NCBI GenBank assembly: GCA_903840265.1
Contig: CAIMFH010000019.1
Location: forward strand, 1-64,000
DNA length: 64,000 bases
Direction: 5' to 3'
DNA from: an uncultured Schlesneria sp.
GTDB lineage: Bacteria; Planctomycetota; Planctomycetia; Planctomycetales; Planctomycetaceae
Numbering within the stretch: the stretch's first letter is position 1; each line of letters starts with the position of its first letter. The notes beneath the pieces were generated by a model. It saw only the letters and a program-made list of their open reading frames with translations. It was not told the origin of the DNA and did no database searches. A program made the position numbers and the translations under genes. This document shows positions 49,571 to 63,860 of the stretch, one piece after another.

Positions 49571-49615
49571 GTTGCCTCCTTCGAATTCAAGGGTCGAAAC
49601 ATGAAAGTCAAAAAT

Positions 49616-50062
<447 letters not shown>

Positions 50063-58606: not shown

Positions 58607-58715
58607 GAATGGCCCTCGATCCTTGCACAAGCCGCCTTAAGCAAAAGCGAGGTTGTAGAAAAAGGGCCGAATTACGGCAACGGCAATCCAAGCGTCTGAA
58701 TCTCCGTCCATGGAA

Positions 58716-58745
58716 TTAAGACGATTGACGATAACTGGTTAGAAT
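58716..58745 (+). promoter_or_regulatory. Possible sigma70-type promoter of the retron-like transcript
   Basis: TTAAGA (58716-58721) and TAGAAT (58740-58745) are separated by 18 bases. A start 7-10 bases downstream would fall at about 58752-58755, exactly at the 5' end of the a1-like repeat. The match to the -35 consensus is weak. Confidence 0.35.
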
Positions 58746-58754
58746 TTTACCGTA

Positions 58755-58930
58755 GGGAATGGGTGGGTGCCCTTGGTTTCGCCTCGGCTTCGTCCTTTGA
58801 CGCCTGGGTGACTTTGGGGCTACCCCTTAGATTTTGGTTCGCTTGGCATCTCGCAGCACGAGTGGAACTCCACACCGGTGGAGAATTACTCGCGCCTCAC
58901 TCGTCTTGGCAGGGCACCTCACCCAATTTC
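58755..58930 (+). ncRNA. Retron-like ncRNA candidate (msr-msd with a1/a2)
   Basis: GGTGCCCT (58766-58773) pairs exactly with AGGGCACC (58911-58918); GGGTG (58761-58765) pairs with CACCC (58920-58924) after one bulged base, and the outer GGGA-AT pairs partly with ATTTC, giving an a1/a2-like stem of 16-18 bp. Between them are hairpins fitting an msr (GTC-CTTT-GAC with flanking GGC/GCC, 58786-58804; GGGG-CTA-CCCC, 58816-58826) and an msd stem-loop (58859-58892: CGAGTGG..TTACTCG with CTCCAC-ACCG-GTGGAG inside). The segment ends 3 bases before the RT start. The msr/msd boundary and branching G are not established. Confidence 0.65.
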
Positions 58931-58932
58931 CG

Positions 58933-60288
58933 ATGCCGATCCGCGAACGATTAGCGATTGCGATTTCAGACTCGTTTCTGGGCGGGTCTTGGACTGCCGA
59001 CGGGTTGTTAACGCGGGCACAGTCTGTGTTTGTGCAGGACATTCAGCGTCAGTGGCTTCGGGAGTTGGTTGATCGAGTGTTGATGGCGTTTCCAGCCACG
59101 TCTGCCCGGCCAACACAACGTCATCTGCAGGAATATGTCGCTGCTCAGGCTGTGATCCCCAAACCGGAACGCGTACCGGGAACCACTCGATTTCGTCGCA
59201 GGATTCAGTCTTGGCAGAGCCAGATGCAACCCGCCGACGGCGCCGCCATGTTGTGGTCGGTTCCTGCGCTTGTCACCATCGCGGAACTTGCGGCCTGGTT
59301 CGAGATCACGGTTGGCGAATTGGAATGGTTTGCAAATCGCACGGGCTGGAACACGGAACATTCTGGCAATGTGCCCGCGAAAGAGACGCTCGGTCACTAT
59401 CGCTACCGCTGGTTGGCAAAGCCTTCCGGCGGGCAGCGGTTGCTTGAGACACCGAAGCCGCGACTAAAGTCTCTGCAGCGAAAAATCCTCACCGGAATTC
59501 TCAACCACGTTCCTGCTCATCGAGCGGCACACGCCTTTCGCAGGGGGCGTTCTGTTGCCACGTATCTTTCTCCGCACGCAGGACAGCAGGTCGTATTGCA
59601 CATCGATCTCAGGGAGTTCTTCCCGTCAGTGCATGCTTCTCGAGTTCACGCCGCCTTCCGAACGATGGGATATCCTGAACGCATTGCCGGTTTGTTGACG
59701 GGCCTTTGCACGAATGACACCCCCTCCGCAATTTTGTATTCGGCAGACGGTCAACGCGTCGACGAAGGGACATGGCTGCGTCAGAGGGCAAAGCATCTGC
59801 CTCAAGGCGCTCCGACATCTCCGGCCCTGGCAAATCTCTGCGCCTACAAACTGGATTGCAGGCTGGAAGGACTGGCGCGAACTGTCTCCGCTCAATACAC
59901 GCGCTATGCCGATGATCTGGTGTTCTCGGGTGAATTCGAATCGCAAAAGTCGCTAGCTCGACTCCGCATTCTCATCAACGCCATCATCTTGGATGAGGGG
60001 TTCGAAATTCGCCATCGCAAAACGCAGGTGATGCCAGCCGGAACAAGGCAGCAAGTTGCAGGCGTTCGTCTCAATGTTCACCCCAATATTCCCCGAGAAG
60101 CTTTTGATGAGTTGAAAGCAATCCTGCACAATTGTTGGCGTTACGGCCCTGGTTCTCAGAATCGAACGGGTCATCCCAATTTTCGAGATCACCTGAACGG
60201 ACGACTGGCGTACTGGTCTAGTATTTGCCCGGTTCGAATCGTCAAGTTGCAGGAAATGTTTGATCGAATTGAATGGACAGAGCAATAG
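58933..60288 (+). CDS. Retron-type reverse transcriptase
   Basis: 451 residues from ATG 58933. An N-terminal extension of about 150 residues precedes HYRYRWLAKPSGGQRLLE (155-172). RT core: HIDLREFFPSV with catalytic Asp225, LPQGAPTSPALANL (289-302), YTRYADDLVFSG with Asp327 and Asp328, HRKTQVMPAG and QQVAGVRLNVHPNIPRE, then a thumb-like C-terminus with HNCWRYGPGSQN and FRDHLNGRLAYW. No maturase X-domain or HNH, so not a group II intron. Retron hallmarks are altered: YLSPH (211-215) where NAxxH is usual and VAG (375-377) where VTG is usual. I reject a start at 58834, which would overlap the ncRNA. No strong ribosome binding site. Confidence 0.85.
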   Translation: MPIRERLAIAISDSFLGGSWTADGLLTRAQSVFVQDIQRQWLRELVDRVLMAFPATSARPTQRHLQEYVAAQAVIPKPERVPGTTRFRRRIQSWQSQMQPADGAAMLWSVPALVTIAELAAWFEITVGELEWFANRTGWNTEHSGNVPAKETLGHYRYRWLAKPSGGQRLLETPKPRLKSLQRKILTGILNHVPAHRAAHAFRRGRSVATYLSPHAGQQVVLHIDLREFFPSVHASRVHAAFRTMGYPERIAGLLTGLCTNDTPSAILYSADGQRVDEGTWLRQRAKHLPQGAPTSPALANLCAYKLDCRLEGLARTVSAQYTRYADDLVFSGEFESQKSLARLRILINAIILDEGFEIRHRKTQVMPAGTRQQVAGVRLNVHPNIPREAFDELKAILHNCWRYGPGSQNRTGHPNFRDHLNGRLAYWSSICPVRIVKLQEMFDRIEWTEQ

Positions 60289-60428
60289 TATTGTCGTGTG
60301 CCTTGCCAGCCGCATCTGGTTGCACTGACTTTCCGGATTGACGCAAATGCGTTAATGTGATACGCGGTAAGTGGTTGTACGCGCATAGGAAGCGGCATCC
60401 GGCAGGGATCGCCTTGATTTGGGATATT

Positions 60429-60839
60429 ATGGGTCAGACCAACTATCAACTGCTGATTGCCGACGATGACGCGGATTTTCGCCAGGCATTGTGCGACATT
60501 TTTGCGCCGTTTTTTCGCTTGATCGAAGTCGGATCAGGAGAGGAAGCGGTTGAACTCGTCACGCATCAGGAAATTCATTTGGCCCTGTTTGACATGCATA
60601 TGAAGCAATTAACAGGGCTGGATGCGCTACGACAACTGCGGGCGCTTCATATCGTGGCTCCGTGTATCATTATCACTGCGGACTACACGGACTCGCTGCG
60701 CGACGATGCCGAACAGGCTGAGGCTTTCTCGGTTTTACGGAAGCCTGTCACACGGCGGGATCTGGTCAGTGCAGTGGCCAATGCCGTCGAATCCGTCTAC
60801 GACGACAGCGAGTTTACACACCGCCTGTTGTGCGGATAA
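60429..60839 (+). CDS. Single-domain response regulator
   Basis: 136 residues from ATG 60429. A receiver domain only: acidic pocket Asp12-Asp14 in IADDDADF, phosphoacceptor Asp55 in LALFDMHMKQ, the switch Thr83 in IIITADYTD, and Lys105 in LRKPVTRRD. No output domain. Partner kinase is not in view. It lies 140 bases after the RT stop with no strong terminator between them, so co-transcription with the RT is possible but unlikely to be functional. Confidence 0.87.
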   Translation: MGQTNYQLLIADDDADFRQALCDIFAPFFRLIEVGSGEEAVELVTHQEIHLALFDMHMKQLTGLDALRQLRALHIVAPCIIITADYTDSLRDDAEQAEAFSVLRKPVTRRDLVSAVANAVESVYDDSEFTHRLLCG

Positions 60840-60935
60840 TTTGCTCCTTGACGCTTCGGCGCAGCACACGCTAGAAGAGATTGTCGTTGCCGCCGGCCAA
60901 CGATTGCTAGCTCGCTTGCGTTTTTGGATTCCACG

Positions 60936-61607
60936 ATGACTTTCGTAACGTTACGGATCTTGGACGGGATGGAACGCGGCAAAAGTTACGTTCGACTGGC
61001 GTTGCCGATCACGATCGGCCGCGAATCCGATAGCGACATCCAGTTGAATGACGATCGCATCAGCCGGGCTCATGCCAAGCTGCAAGATCATTCGGGACGC
61101 GTCATTCTGACCGATCTTGGCAGCACAAACGGAACGCGGGTGAATGGGCATCCGATCCAGATGCGGGTCATGCAGCATGGCGATATTATTCTCGTTGGCC
61201 GATGCGTGCTGCTGTTCGATCAGTCTCCCAGCGACGAACCACTGACGGATTTGGGCCTGCCTCGACCGACAGTGGTGGGCTCTGCCGAAAAGAGCAACTT
61301 AGACGACAGTGACCTGGAAGTCTCGTTTGATCCCGATCCGGCTATCGACGCAGACGCAACTCCACTCTTCCCACTGGGAAGGCCTCCCGTTCCTGCGGAG
61401 TTGAATGCTTTGCAGCGCGTTCAACTTTCTGATCTCCTGTCTTATGTTCACGAGCAACTTGGCGTCGTGATTCGTGGAGCGGTGGAAGATTTGCACGGTT
61501 CGCAGACGAGGACGATCAAGGTGGACTGGCCTACCTGGAGCCGACTGTCGTCCCTGATGGGCGAAGTGTCGCAGGATATGCGTTCGATCTGCGATCCCGA
61601 CGACTAG
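60936..61607 (+). CDS. FHA-domain protein
   Basis: 223 residues from ATG 60936. The FHA phosphothreonine-binding domain is at residues 5-90: GRESDSDIQLNDDRISRAHA followed by TDLGSTNGTRVNG, with the conserved Arg, Ser, His and Asn residues. The C-terminal half has ELNALQRVQLSDLLSYVHEQ and no recognised domain. Binds phosphorylated partners in Ser/Thr kinase signalling. The 96-base spacing to the response regulator suggests a small signalling group. Confidence 0.85.
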   Translation: MTFVTLRILDGMERGKSYVRLALPITIGRESDSDIQLNDDRISRAHAKLQDHSGRVILTDLGSTNGTRVNGHPIQMRVMQHGDIILVGRCVLLFDQSPSDEPLTDLGLPRPTVVGSAEKSNLDDSDLEVSFDPDPAIDADATPLFPLGRPPVPAELNALQRVQLSDLLSYVHEQLGVVIRGAVEDLHGSQTRTIKVDWPTWSRLSSLMGEVSQDMRSICDPDD

Positions 61608-61904
61608 TGTTCGGTTGTGGCAACGTTCTCGCGCAATGCGGTCATCCTCTGACGTCTGCCGATTGCGATCGTTAGATTCCGGATTATCGGCACAACCGGT
61701 GATATCTGTGTAATTGCTCAATATCGCCGGGTGTCACGCGTGTCGCCGATTTACCATGCCTAGATTTTCGCGGTTCGGCGGCGACGTGAACTAATCTTCA
61801 CTTGGACCCCCCACCCGGTTCGCGTCCGATCCTGGCCGTCTCTTCGTTCGAGTCAGATGGCGAGGATAACGCGAACGACAATCGAGCCGTTTTGGTGACT
61901 CAAG

Positions 61905-63860
61905 ATGATTGACCCCACACGAATTTGGTCGCTGACCCAACTCCCTTCGCTGCCGACGGTCGCGCAGGCGCTATTGAAGTTGACCGCTAACCCAGAGACC
62001 GAGTTGCGGCAGATCGTCCAACTCGTGAAGGCTGATCCAGCCATCTCCGCGAAAGTCGTCAAAGCGGCGAATTCGACCTTTTTCGGCGTTAGATCGGAAG
62101 TCAAAGGGATCGAGCGGGCGGTGTCGTTACTCGGCCCTAGCGTTTCAAATTCATTGGCGCTGAGTTTCGGGCTGACTCTGGCTTCTGCGGCGAATTCGCC
62201 AATGGCGAATCACTATCGAGATTGTTGGAAGCAGTCGATCATCCAGGCTTCCGCAGCGGCTGAGATTGCTCATCGGATTGCACCCGCATCGGCGGACGAT
62301 TTTTCACTTTGCGGCCTGTTACTCGAAGTCGGTCGGCTGGCACTGATGTCGACTTTCGAAACCGAATACCGCCCCGTCCTGGAAACATCGCAGGAGGGAC
62401 GGCTGTCCCTGTCCCAAATCGAAGAAGAATGGCTGGGAATCCAGCACGCCGAAGTCGGTGCCCGTCTAATGGAACATTGGAAGATGCCGGTCGCTGTGAT
62501 CGAGGCGATCCGCTGGCATCATGCTCCCTATGTTCTGTTAGAGGAGCAGCGTCAACATGAATACTTCCCCGCTCTGGCGGCCACGGCGGTCGCCTCTTGC
62601 GCGGGAGATGTGCTTTGCACTAAGTCCAACGAGCAGGCTCGCGAACGCCTGGATCGAATGGCTCGAACTCTGCTGCACTGGCGAACGGAAGAGACCGCCG
62701 AATTTCTGCACCAGACGGAGTTGAGCTGGCAGCAACACGCCAATCTCCTTGAGTTTGATGAAACTCAGGCCCCTGCCGATTTGATGATGCAGGCCAACGA
62801 ACAACTGGTCCGGCTGACATTGCGAGCACATGTGGCCTGCACGCAAGCGACATTGCGCCAACAACTGGCCGAGCAGGAGCGACGAGACCTTGAGTTTCAG
62901 AACAAGCAACTGCAGAAGCAGGCCCTTCACGACCCGTTGACGAAGGTGTACAACCGCCAGTTTTTCGACGAGATGCTCGATACCGAAGCGAAGCGATGCA
63001 CTCGCTGTGCTTCGCCGATCGGGCTGATCTTTGCGGATGTCGATCATTTCAAGCAGATCAACGACACCTACGGACATCAGTTCGGTGATGTGGTGCTGCA
63101 ACAGATTGTCAAGGTTTTTGCAGACGCGATTCGAAACTCCGACATCCTGGCTCGATTCGGCGGCGAAGAGTTCGTGATCCTTGTGAACCAGCCGACTGAA
63201 CGCTGCTTAGAGCGATTGGCAGAGAAGATTCGTGGACGAGTGGAAGCGGAACCCTTCCTGTTTGGCGATATGCGAGTCCCGGTCACCGTGAGTCTGGGTG
63301 CAGCCATTTCAATCCCGGGCCGCGACGATGTTGATCTGCCACATCGATTGATCGCAGCGGCGGATGCCAGCCTGTACGACGCCAAACGCTCAGGCCGCAA
63401 TCGCTGTTGCATCCGATCGTTAGTCGACGAAAATGAGCGAGCACTCTCGCAACTTGTGCTGCAACATCGATTCAGTCGATGGCTGGTTTCCAAACGCCTG
63501 CTGGATATTCCTTCGGTCTCCCGAGCCCTCTTGGAATGCCCTCACGAGAATACTCGCATAGGCGAATTGGCGATTCAGTCCCATTACCTGGATGACGACC
63601 AGGTGAATCACATTATCCGCCTTCAGAATGACACGAACGAGCGATTCGGTACGGCCGCCATTCGTCTGGGTTGGATCAGCGAAGGTCAACTCGTCCATCT
63701 CTTGTCGTTGCAGCAAGAGAATCCGAAGCAACTGGCCGCGGCCGTCGTTCGTTTGGGAATGCTTTCAGCGCCTCGAACGGCAGAGTCTCTCGAGGACTAT
63801 CTGTTGTCGAAGATCCCCGATGGACATCGGTATCTCGAAACAGAAATGGTCACGTCCTGA
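61905..63860 (+). CDS. HDOD-GGDEF diguanylate cyclase
   Basis: 651 residues. HDOD domain at about 10-210 (LPSLPTVAQALLKLTANPET, VKAANSTFFGVRSEVKGIER). A coiled-coil link (RQQLAEQERRDLEFQNKQLQ) leads to a GGDEF domain at about 343-500: DPLTKVYNRQFFDEML, FADVDHFKQINDTYGHQFGD and ARFGGEEF (about 415-422) with an intact signature, plus an I-site RxxD (RNSD) five residues ahead, so it should make c-di-GMP and be product-inhibited. The last 110 residues repeat LxxQ-G-type motifs (IGELAIQSHYLDDDQVNHII, FGTAAIRLGWISEGQLVHLL) like MshEN domains that bind c-di-GMP. Bases 61608-61904 upstream show no gene. Confidence 0.88.
   Translation: MIDPTRIWSLTQLPSLPTVAQALLKLTANPETELRQIVQLVKADPAISAKVVKAANSTFFGVRSEVKGIERAVSLLGPSVSNSLALSFGLTLASAANSPMANHYRDCWKQSIIQASAAAEIAHRIAPASADDFSLCGLLLEVGRLALMSTFETEYRPVLETSQEGRLSLSQIEEEWLGIQHAEVGARLMEHWKMPVAVIEAIRWHHAPYVLLEEQRQHEYFPALAATAVASCAGDVLCTKSNEQARERLDRMARTLLHWRTEETAEFLHQTELSWQQHANLLEFDETQAPADLMMQANEQLVRLTLRAHVACTQATLRQQLAEQERRDLEFQNKQLQKQALHDPLTKVYNRQFFDEMLDTEAKRCTRCASPIGLIFADVDHFKQINDTYGHQFGDVVLQQIVKVFADAIRNSDILARFGGEEFVILVNQPTERCLERLAEKIRGRVEAEPFLFGDMRVPVTVSLGAAISIPGRDDVDLPHRLIAAADASLYDAKRSGRNRCCIRSLVDENERALSQLVLQHRFSRWLVSKRLLDIPSVSRALLECPHENTRIGELAIQSHYLDDDQVNHIIRLQNDTNERFGTAAIRLGWISEGQLVHLLSLQQENPKQLAAAVVRLGMLSAPRTAESLEDYLLSKIPDGHRYLETEMVTS

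Follow-up and report, generated by a model that had tools for sequence, protein, structure and literature searches.

A very probable retron of an untyped reverse transcriptase clade in an uncultured Schlesneria sp., with a covarying noncoding RNA directly upstream of the reverse transcriptase gene

The stretch of DNA analyzed here (the window; 64,000 nucleotides [nt] of an uncultured Schlesneria sp., assembly GCA_903840265.1, contig CAIMFH010000019.1) carries what is very probably a retron near its right end, consisting of a structured noncoding RNA (ncRNA) and, directly behind it, the gene of a reverse transcriptase (RT). A retron in a planctomycete had been proposed from the letters of the sequence alone, and it is now supported by the ncRNA, by covariation and by the RT tree. 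On the basis of the RNA, the RT and their covariation, we are close to certain that the locus is a retron, and among the named records listed, those closest to the window are indeed metagenome-assembled genomes (MAGs) of Schlesneria. Our preferred explanation overall, with a probability of about 0.85, is that the locus represents a genuine retron, that its clade is untyped and that RNA and RT together form the unit. We call this clade, the window RT and its close kin with an N-terminal domain, clade A and its sister group clade B (names of this study). Three points go beyond the original prediction: the RT is best matched by untyped retron RT models, no separate effector is found beside it, and its relatives occur in at least six phyla.

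The RT, with a YADD active site, is directly preceded by a structured segment, as had been described. Positions 58755-58931 (177 nt) fold with a minimum free energy of −78.8 kcal/mol (z = −4.23), and 0/200 dinucleotide shuffles were equally stable; for the longer stretch 58740-58945, z was −2.85, with 1/200 shuffles equally stable. The predicted layout comprises an a1/a2 stem, two msr hairpins and an msd hairpin, in agreement with the several hairpins that had been noticed between the arms. The imperfect inverted repeat that was said to bound the segment held up in that its arms pair (19 pairs in the prediction), but the stem contains two one-base bulges (58919 and 58925), both in a2, where one had been reported. 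Likewise, a2 adjoins the RT gene but terminates one base ahead of the ATG in the predicted fold, not three. An Rfam scan at gathering and permissive thresholds returned no relevant family for the ncRNA. The parts of the locus are the following.

58755 to 58773, plus strand: a1 arm (fold; covariation of helices 1 and 2)
58775 to 58776, plus strand: candidate for the priming (branch) guanosine, proposed from position; either G58775 or G58776, immediately 3′ of a1
58779 to 58811, plus strand: first msr hairpin, from the window fold only; not a consensus helix, its sequence and length varying among relatives
58812 to 58830, plus strand: second msr hairpin; core GGGG-YTA-CCCC at 58816-58826, outer pairs covarying (helix 3)
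58856 to 58895, plus strand: msd hairpin of two stacked stems (helices 4 and 5)
58896 to 58910, plus strand: 3′ end of the msd template, which aligns with the conserved AGACTCG-TTGG of relatives
58911 to 58931, plus strand: a2 arm, ending beside the RT start codon (fold; covariation)
58933 to 60288, plus strand: retron reverse transcriptase, 451 amino acids (aa) (PADLOC RT_other/RT_outgroup, Pfam RVT_1, trees, dN/dS)
58933 to 59250, plus strand: N-terminal RT domain, predicted as four helices (residues 3-72) with a low-confidence linker behind them (AlphaFold2)

Twelve clade-A proteins were compared with named genomes, and the best 80 of at least 572 relatives were kept. Most of them have, some 120 nt ahead of the RT, a hairpin whose core is GGGG-YTA-CCCC and which lies between arms of which GCTCCAAGC and GTTGGAGC are examples. 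The core motif yielded 82 upstream stretches, 61 of them nonredundant, and 51 of these were aligned (alignment A3); the remaining ten had been excluded by hand ahead of counting, for a misplaced anchor (L084), for N runs (L062), for an uncertain RT start (L046, L101, and L108) or to limit near-identical rows (L053, L056, L068, L079, and L092). RNAalifold predicted 33 pairs in A3, 28 of which show at least one compensatory double change. The a1/a2 pairing is kept and covaries in the homologous loci, with double changes in all 13 pairs of its helices (n = 51). Paired cells amounted to 93.8% versus 77.8% in shuffled alignments, double-change cells to 248 versus 62.3 and the covariation score to 0.469 versus 0.171 (0/500 shuffles each); this control ignores relatedness. 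Sliding the partners by 1 to 3 columns left 36.5 to 49.0% of cells paired and 41 to 67 double changes, a control that allows for relatedness but favors a structure derived from the same sequences. In msd helices 4 and 5, 97.2 and 99.0% of the cells are paired, and 9 of the 11 pairs have double changes. The GGGG-CCCC core keeps its four standard pairs in 51/51 rows, an invariance that is partly due to selection since the stretches were picked by this core; the arms and the msd were no part of the selection criterion. Because of the covariation in 51 homologues, chance is further excluded as an explanation of the window ncRNA.

With a covariance model built from A3 (R1), the RNA is detected at 77/80 named loci, comprising 41/41 training loci and 36/39 outside training, although two of the latter 36 (L033 and L075) share their contigs with the training rows L004 and L009. 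Two of the nonmatching loci (L051 and L077) are too close to a contig end. In the genus of Pyxidicoccus caerfyrddinensis, which also includes Myxococcus xanthus, R1 is positive at 13/13 clade-A loci, 12 of them outside training (L115 is the trained L050).

The open reading frame (ORF) of the RT itself, on the plus strand, opens with the ATG at 58933, and its stop codon ends at 60288; the YADD site is intact at residues 325-328. The best PADLOC models are RT_other (489 bits, E = 5.7e-147) and RT_outgroup (463 bits, E = 3.3e-139), both of which cover almost the full length of the protein together with its N-terminal part. These are labels of hidden Markov models without a numbered type, to which no ncRNA, effector or function is attached, and they are likewise the best models for clade B, for a clade-A RT of M. 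xanthus (L154) and for one of Paraburkholderia (L040). According to PMC9252829, PADLOC also includes msr-msd covariance models. Foldseek against the Protein Data Bank (PDB) returned a retron RT at every one of ranks 1-18, and the only Pfam family in the window RT is RVT_1. In a comparison of the window with the nearest relative, the ratio of nonsynonymous to synonymous substitution rates (dN/dS) was 0.17 over the whole RT and 0.28 over residues 1-105; the RT is shown to be under purifying selection, and the latter value indicates that the N-terminal extension is under selection as well.

In a careful tree of 47 rows, composed of 42 retron rows and five group II intron RTs as the outgroup, with no row of the DRT class (defense-associated reverse transcriptases), all 42 retron rows, the window RT among them, lie on one side of the group II intron RTs (support, 100/100). 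Ec67 and St85-type rows diverge first. The window RT nests among the retron RTs in its own clade A (16 rows; 99/94), which is the sister (99/99) of clade B (8 rows; 100/99), and both stand near a group containing Mx162 and Mx65 (92/84). A quick tree of 74 rows, restricted to retron RTs and again without a DRT-class row, supported clades A and B at 97 and 98 and their sister relation at 99. The rows of Ec73 and Ec78 have long branches, and their position is uncertain in both trees. Retron type XIII (Mx162/Mx65) was considered as a class for the window RT and rejected. The resemblance is that Mx162 and Mx65 are near neighbors of clade A in the trees and have RTs with an N-terminal extension (PMC6868368), but they form separate clades. 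RT_XIII is the best model for their RTs (435-510 bits), whereas it gives 304-313 bits for clade A (window RT, 304 bits against 489 for RT_other), and six loci of both types are without an R1 match at E = 0.1.

Several observations weigh against the assignment to the retrons. The NCBIfam retron models stay under their cutoffs (St85, 174.6 of 235 bits; Ec67, 155.6 of 450 bits). Region X of the window RT reads TYLSPH, so that only the histidine of NAxxH is kept, and region Y starts with VAG instead of VTG. NAxxH itself is present in two clade-A members (L011 and L014). In PMC6868368, each motif is given for 14/16 validated retrons, with Mx65 and Ec48 deviating from NAxxH and Vc81 and Ec48 from VTG; neither is universal among validated retrons, and therefore the deviations were not counted as disproof. 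At the branch site, the family consensus is CAAGC, which is absent in the window subgroup; the window reads TTGGT there, in which a G occupies the expected position. The same source names TAGC as the commonest context of the priming guanosine 3′ of a1, with CAGC, GAGC and others also known. In the nearest relative (L032; 90% RT identity), ncRNA and RT are parted by an insert of about 455 nt that includes a 136-aa ORF, and one of the 80 loci (L035) is a genuine R1 miss despite enough upstream DNA. Finally, no statement that a clade-A RT makes multicopy single-stranded DNA (msDNA) was found in the portions of the literature covered.

The insert of L032 (4546-5000) encodes a membrane-protein-like ORF without a Pfam match and has the repeat AATTTCC at its ends. 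In a Singulisphaera locus (L036, 3708-4961), a gene of the OrfB_IS605/TnpB type (Pfam) lies between RNA and RT.

The limits of the unit can be read from its surroundings. Upstream and divergent lies a mannosyltransferase-like gene (PMT families); downstream, at 60357-63860, a response regulator (RR), an FHA protein and an HDOD-GGDEF protein follow in a row. None of these four neighbors has an effector-like Pfam family. Seven PMT loci of the genus were inspected for a retron-free site: in two (the window's own and that of the nearest relative, G012, which is L032) the retron accompanies PMT, in two (G009, locus L181, and G007, locus L183) PMT and RR are adjacent without an RT, and in three (G011, G010, and G013) there is neither RT nor RR within the available DNA. 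The order PMT, RT, RR, FHA of G012 is that of the window, and RR and FHA also come after PMT in the retron-free G009. Weak intergenic homology reaches from the left to window position 58711 (versus G009) and resumes on the right at 60315 (versus G007). Since the flanking genes are adjacent without the retron and homology resumes at these limits, the unit of about 1.6 kb consists of RNA and RT only.

58712 to 60314, plus strand: retron unit, limits approximate; absent between PMT and RR in G009 and G007

Judged by their record titles, the 80 relatives kept come from at least six phyla (Planctomycetota, Acidobacteriota, Pseudomonadota, Myxococcota, Verrucomicrobiota, and Gemmatimonadota). Many are MAGs, and Gemmatimonadota is represented by one MAG; isolates include Pyxidicoccus, Paraburkholderia, Luteolibacter, Singulisphaera, and Bythopirellula. 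When 59 related genomes were searched at the protein level, 45 had matches, which fell into two main groups. RNA scores at the clade-A level occur in 29/150 family genomes (two of them partial) with a cut of 59 bits; the next score, 57.7 bits, belongs to a clade-B RNA. This patchy distribution fits what might be a defense cargo. Three clade-A RT frames (L066, L092, and L018) have an early stop (40 and 135 codons from the chosen start) or are truncated, and some copies may be decaying. A further RNA match at the clade-A level (G030:C1008:6683-6885; 74.9 bits) lies in a genome whose clade-A RT is on another contig (C243, locus L007/L035), with no match upstream of it.

Clade B is present in the window's own genome (L002, G000:C161:70347-71675), and further loci are L012, L013, L015, L016, L019, and L021-L031. 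With a cut at ≥48% identity, matches at the clade-B level were obtained in 68/101 genomes of the window's family (G076 partial). Its RNA is matched by R1 at 22 to 58 bits in at least 15 loci, aligns well among 15 loci and, where placeable, ends about 27 to 213 bases ahead of the RT start. Clade B is thus like clade A in being its sister RT clade with an RNA recognized by the clade-A model, but it differs in its N terminus, a short hydrophobic segment and a linker without the clade-A domain, in the greater distance of the RNA from the RT and in being widespread in the family. In 15 neighborhoods picked by hand, an upstream gene is shared in 7 (a Pfam scan of one of them, L157, gave an M50-type family), a membrane-like gene lies downstream in 9 and MutL and shikimate-pathway genes are found in 4. 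Wide occurrence together with partly shared neighbors suggests that clade B may have descended vertically, as a near-core retron candidate of the planctomycete family.

In the myxobacterial genus, a clade-A RT is found in 13/27 genomes, and RTs that we read as Mx162 type are found in 27/27, three of which were checked in the tree. We take L152 to be Mx162, from its length of 485 aa, which is that of the Mx162 RT, and from this occurrence in 27/27. The clade-A locus of M. xanthus (L154; genome G205, inferred to be DSM 16526, contig 5, about 214.4-216.0 kb) has both RT and RNA (R1, 55.7 bits) and, judged by sequence, would be a third retron of this species beside Mx162 and Mx65. The published position of Mx65 (FNOH01000027, 37959-39242; table in PMC8934634) coincides with a 427-codon ATG-to-stop ORF on contig 27 of G205, and it is by this coincidence that G205 was recognized as M. 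xanthus. That clade A is the Mx65 type is ruled out by the M. xanthus genome and by PADLOC.

In descriptions of most retrons studied so far, the retron guards a toxin that is either separate or fused. To look for such a partner, the neighborhoods of the 80 loci and the window (about 5 kb on each side, less at contig ends) were taken together, and their 3031 mechanically called ORFs were clustered. Among the 40 widest clusters, none qualified as a partner by reappearing in different lineages at a constant position, although ORFs of <70 aa, contig ends and the narrower clusters may hide a short partner. The widest clusters cover 8/81 loci. Two clusters of mixed lineages, one with eight loci (L034, L064, L065, L071, L088, L091, L102, and L111) and one with five (L045, L092, L105, L107, and L109), were rejected as partners on account of offsets that differ by kilobases and side, and most of the remaining wide clusters were rejected, being confined to Burkholderia, Paraburkholderia, or Undibacterium groups. 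A recognizable effector, linked or fused, was found neither in the RT (Pfam) nor in the four neighbors nor in the 40 widest clusters.

The N-terminal domain of the RT is predicted with confidence by AlphaFold2 (10-residue means of the predicted local distance difference test, 83-96 over residues 1-70 of the window protein, mostly >90) and is common to 49/49 aligned clade-A sequences, which had been chosen for a full start. Pfam gave no consistent family for it (DUF1707 in 2/49 at a best E of 5.6e-5 and 17 others in one sequence each), NCBIfam gave 10 families in 1/49 each (best E, 0.013), PDB sequences gave designed helix bundles and unrelated proteins at E = 0.0085 and worse, and among PDB folds there was none at E = 0.001 (best E, 2.6). 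Because no conserved neighboring effector was found, we propose, tentatively and by analogy, that this helical domain may be a built-in output module, either an effector or a dock for a chromosomal one.

Among characterized systems, Ec86 has the same order as the window, a1-msr-msd-a2-RT, and is the best PDB match to the window RT by structure and by sequence. It differs in having a separate effector, as the title of PDB entry 7v9x indicates, while no such gene was found at the window locus. A description of clade A was not found in titles and abstract openings of the literature searched, a coverage that did not extend to a comparison with the Mestre 2020 classification.

If the locus is a true clade-A retron, ncRNA and RT would be transcribed together, and a1 and a2 would pair. 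The RT would bind the msr hairpins, with the GGGG-YTA-CCCC hairpin as a likely landmark, and cDNA synthesis would be primed from the 2′-OH of the guanosine just past a1. Copying of the msd probably begins near 58907, a start derived from the layout of known retrons, and would proceed leftwards through the hairpin; by the same layout, the product would be a branched msDNA of about 60 to 70 nt that stays with the RT. It is conceivable, as a guess by analogy with other retrons, that the RT-msDNA complex holds the N-terminal domain in check and releases it on phage attack.

The lack of a linked effector in the 81 neighborhoods (40 widest clusters) could also mean that the effector gene has another chromosomal location and that the N-terminal domain only helps RNA binding or docks this effector, as would suit a small helical domain with no consistent family or fold match. 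However, with members in at least six phyla and a two-part unit in the window lineage, the partner would be needed already in each host, and we consider this arrangement unlikely, although a serious candidate. The retron might instead have a chromosomal role other than defense, its msDNA serving as a regulator or repair substrate, as has long been suspected for myxobacterial retrons. The many family genomes with clade B and its partly shared neighbors, and the Mx162-type RTs throughout the myxobacterial genus, would accord with this role, but the patchiness of clade A (29/150), the retron-free sites in two close relatives and the spread over at least six phyla are more like defense or mobile cargo, and such a role appears rather improbable to us.

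Two further explanations concern the nature of the RNA. The locus might be another kind of defense RT (DRT/UG [unknown group] class), with an ncRNA that is copied in repeats instead of into branched msDNA; an adjacent ncRNA is possible in such RTs too, for example in DRT2 (PMC12039810). The window RT does match the Drt2 and Drt3a models weakly, but the scores are far under the model cutoffs (35.8 of 390 and 21.4 of 200 bits), as against 489 and 463 bits for the PADLOC retron models, and the layout, in which the end arms pair and a guanosine comes behind a1, is that of a retron; this makes a DRT/UG system very improbable. A Drt2 search in 61 family genomes gave no match, but the controls were equally matchless. 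That the structured leader merely regulates translation of the RT, with no role as a template, is suggested by the contact of a2 with the RT start codon in the window. Yet R1 still recognizes the RNA where an insertion parts it from the RT (L032 and L036), and the msd hairpin covaries though it is unlinked to the start codon, so that we give this idea hardly any credence.

Returning to clade A as an untyped retron, it may constitute a distinct type made of RNA and one protein, with the undescribed N-terminal helical domain as effector or sensor, spread over at least six phyla and including a third retron of M. xanthus, beside a long-kept, near-core clade B; we consider this fuller picture somewhat less likely than not. 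A clade so widespread, with a well-conserved RNA but no recognizable effector, would point either to a new type of output module, some 75 residues in size, or to retron action that needs no linked effector. With R1 and the M. xanthus copy, this question becomes accessible in a laboratory strain. Being compact (about 1.6 kb, with a short msd), the unit may serve for DNA production in cells, and clade B is a candidate for vertical retention of a retron, for which a case has also been made in myxobacteria.

Apart from the retron, the window contains a bacterial RNase P RNA (class A) at 49614-50060 and a tRNA gene at 58-141. A genome of the same genus (G003) has eleven group II intron RT matches, many with near-identical scores, and thus an active-looking group II intron.
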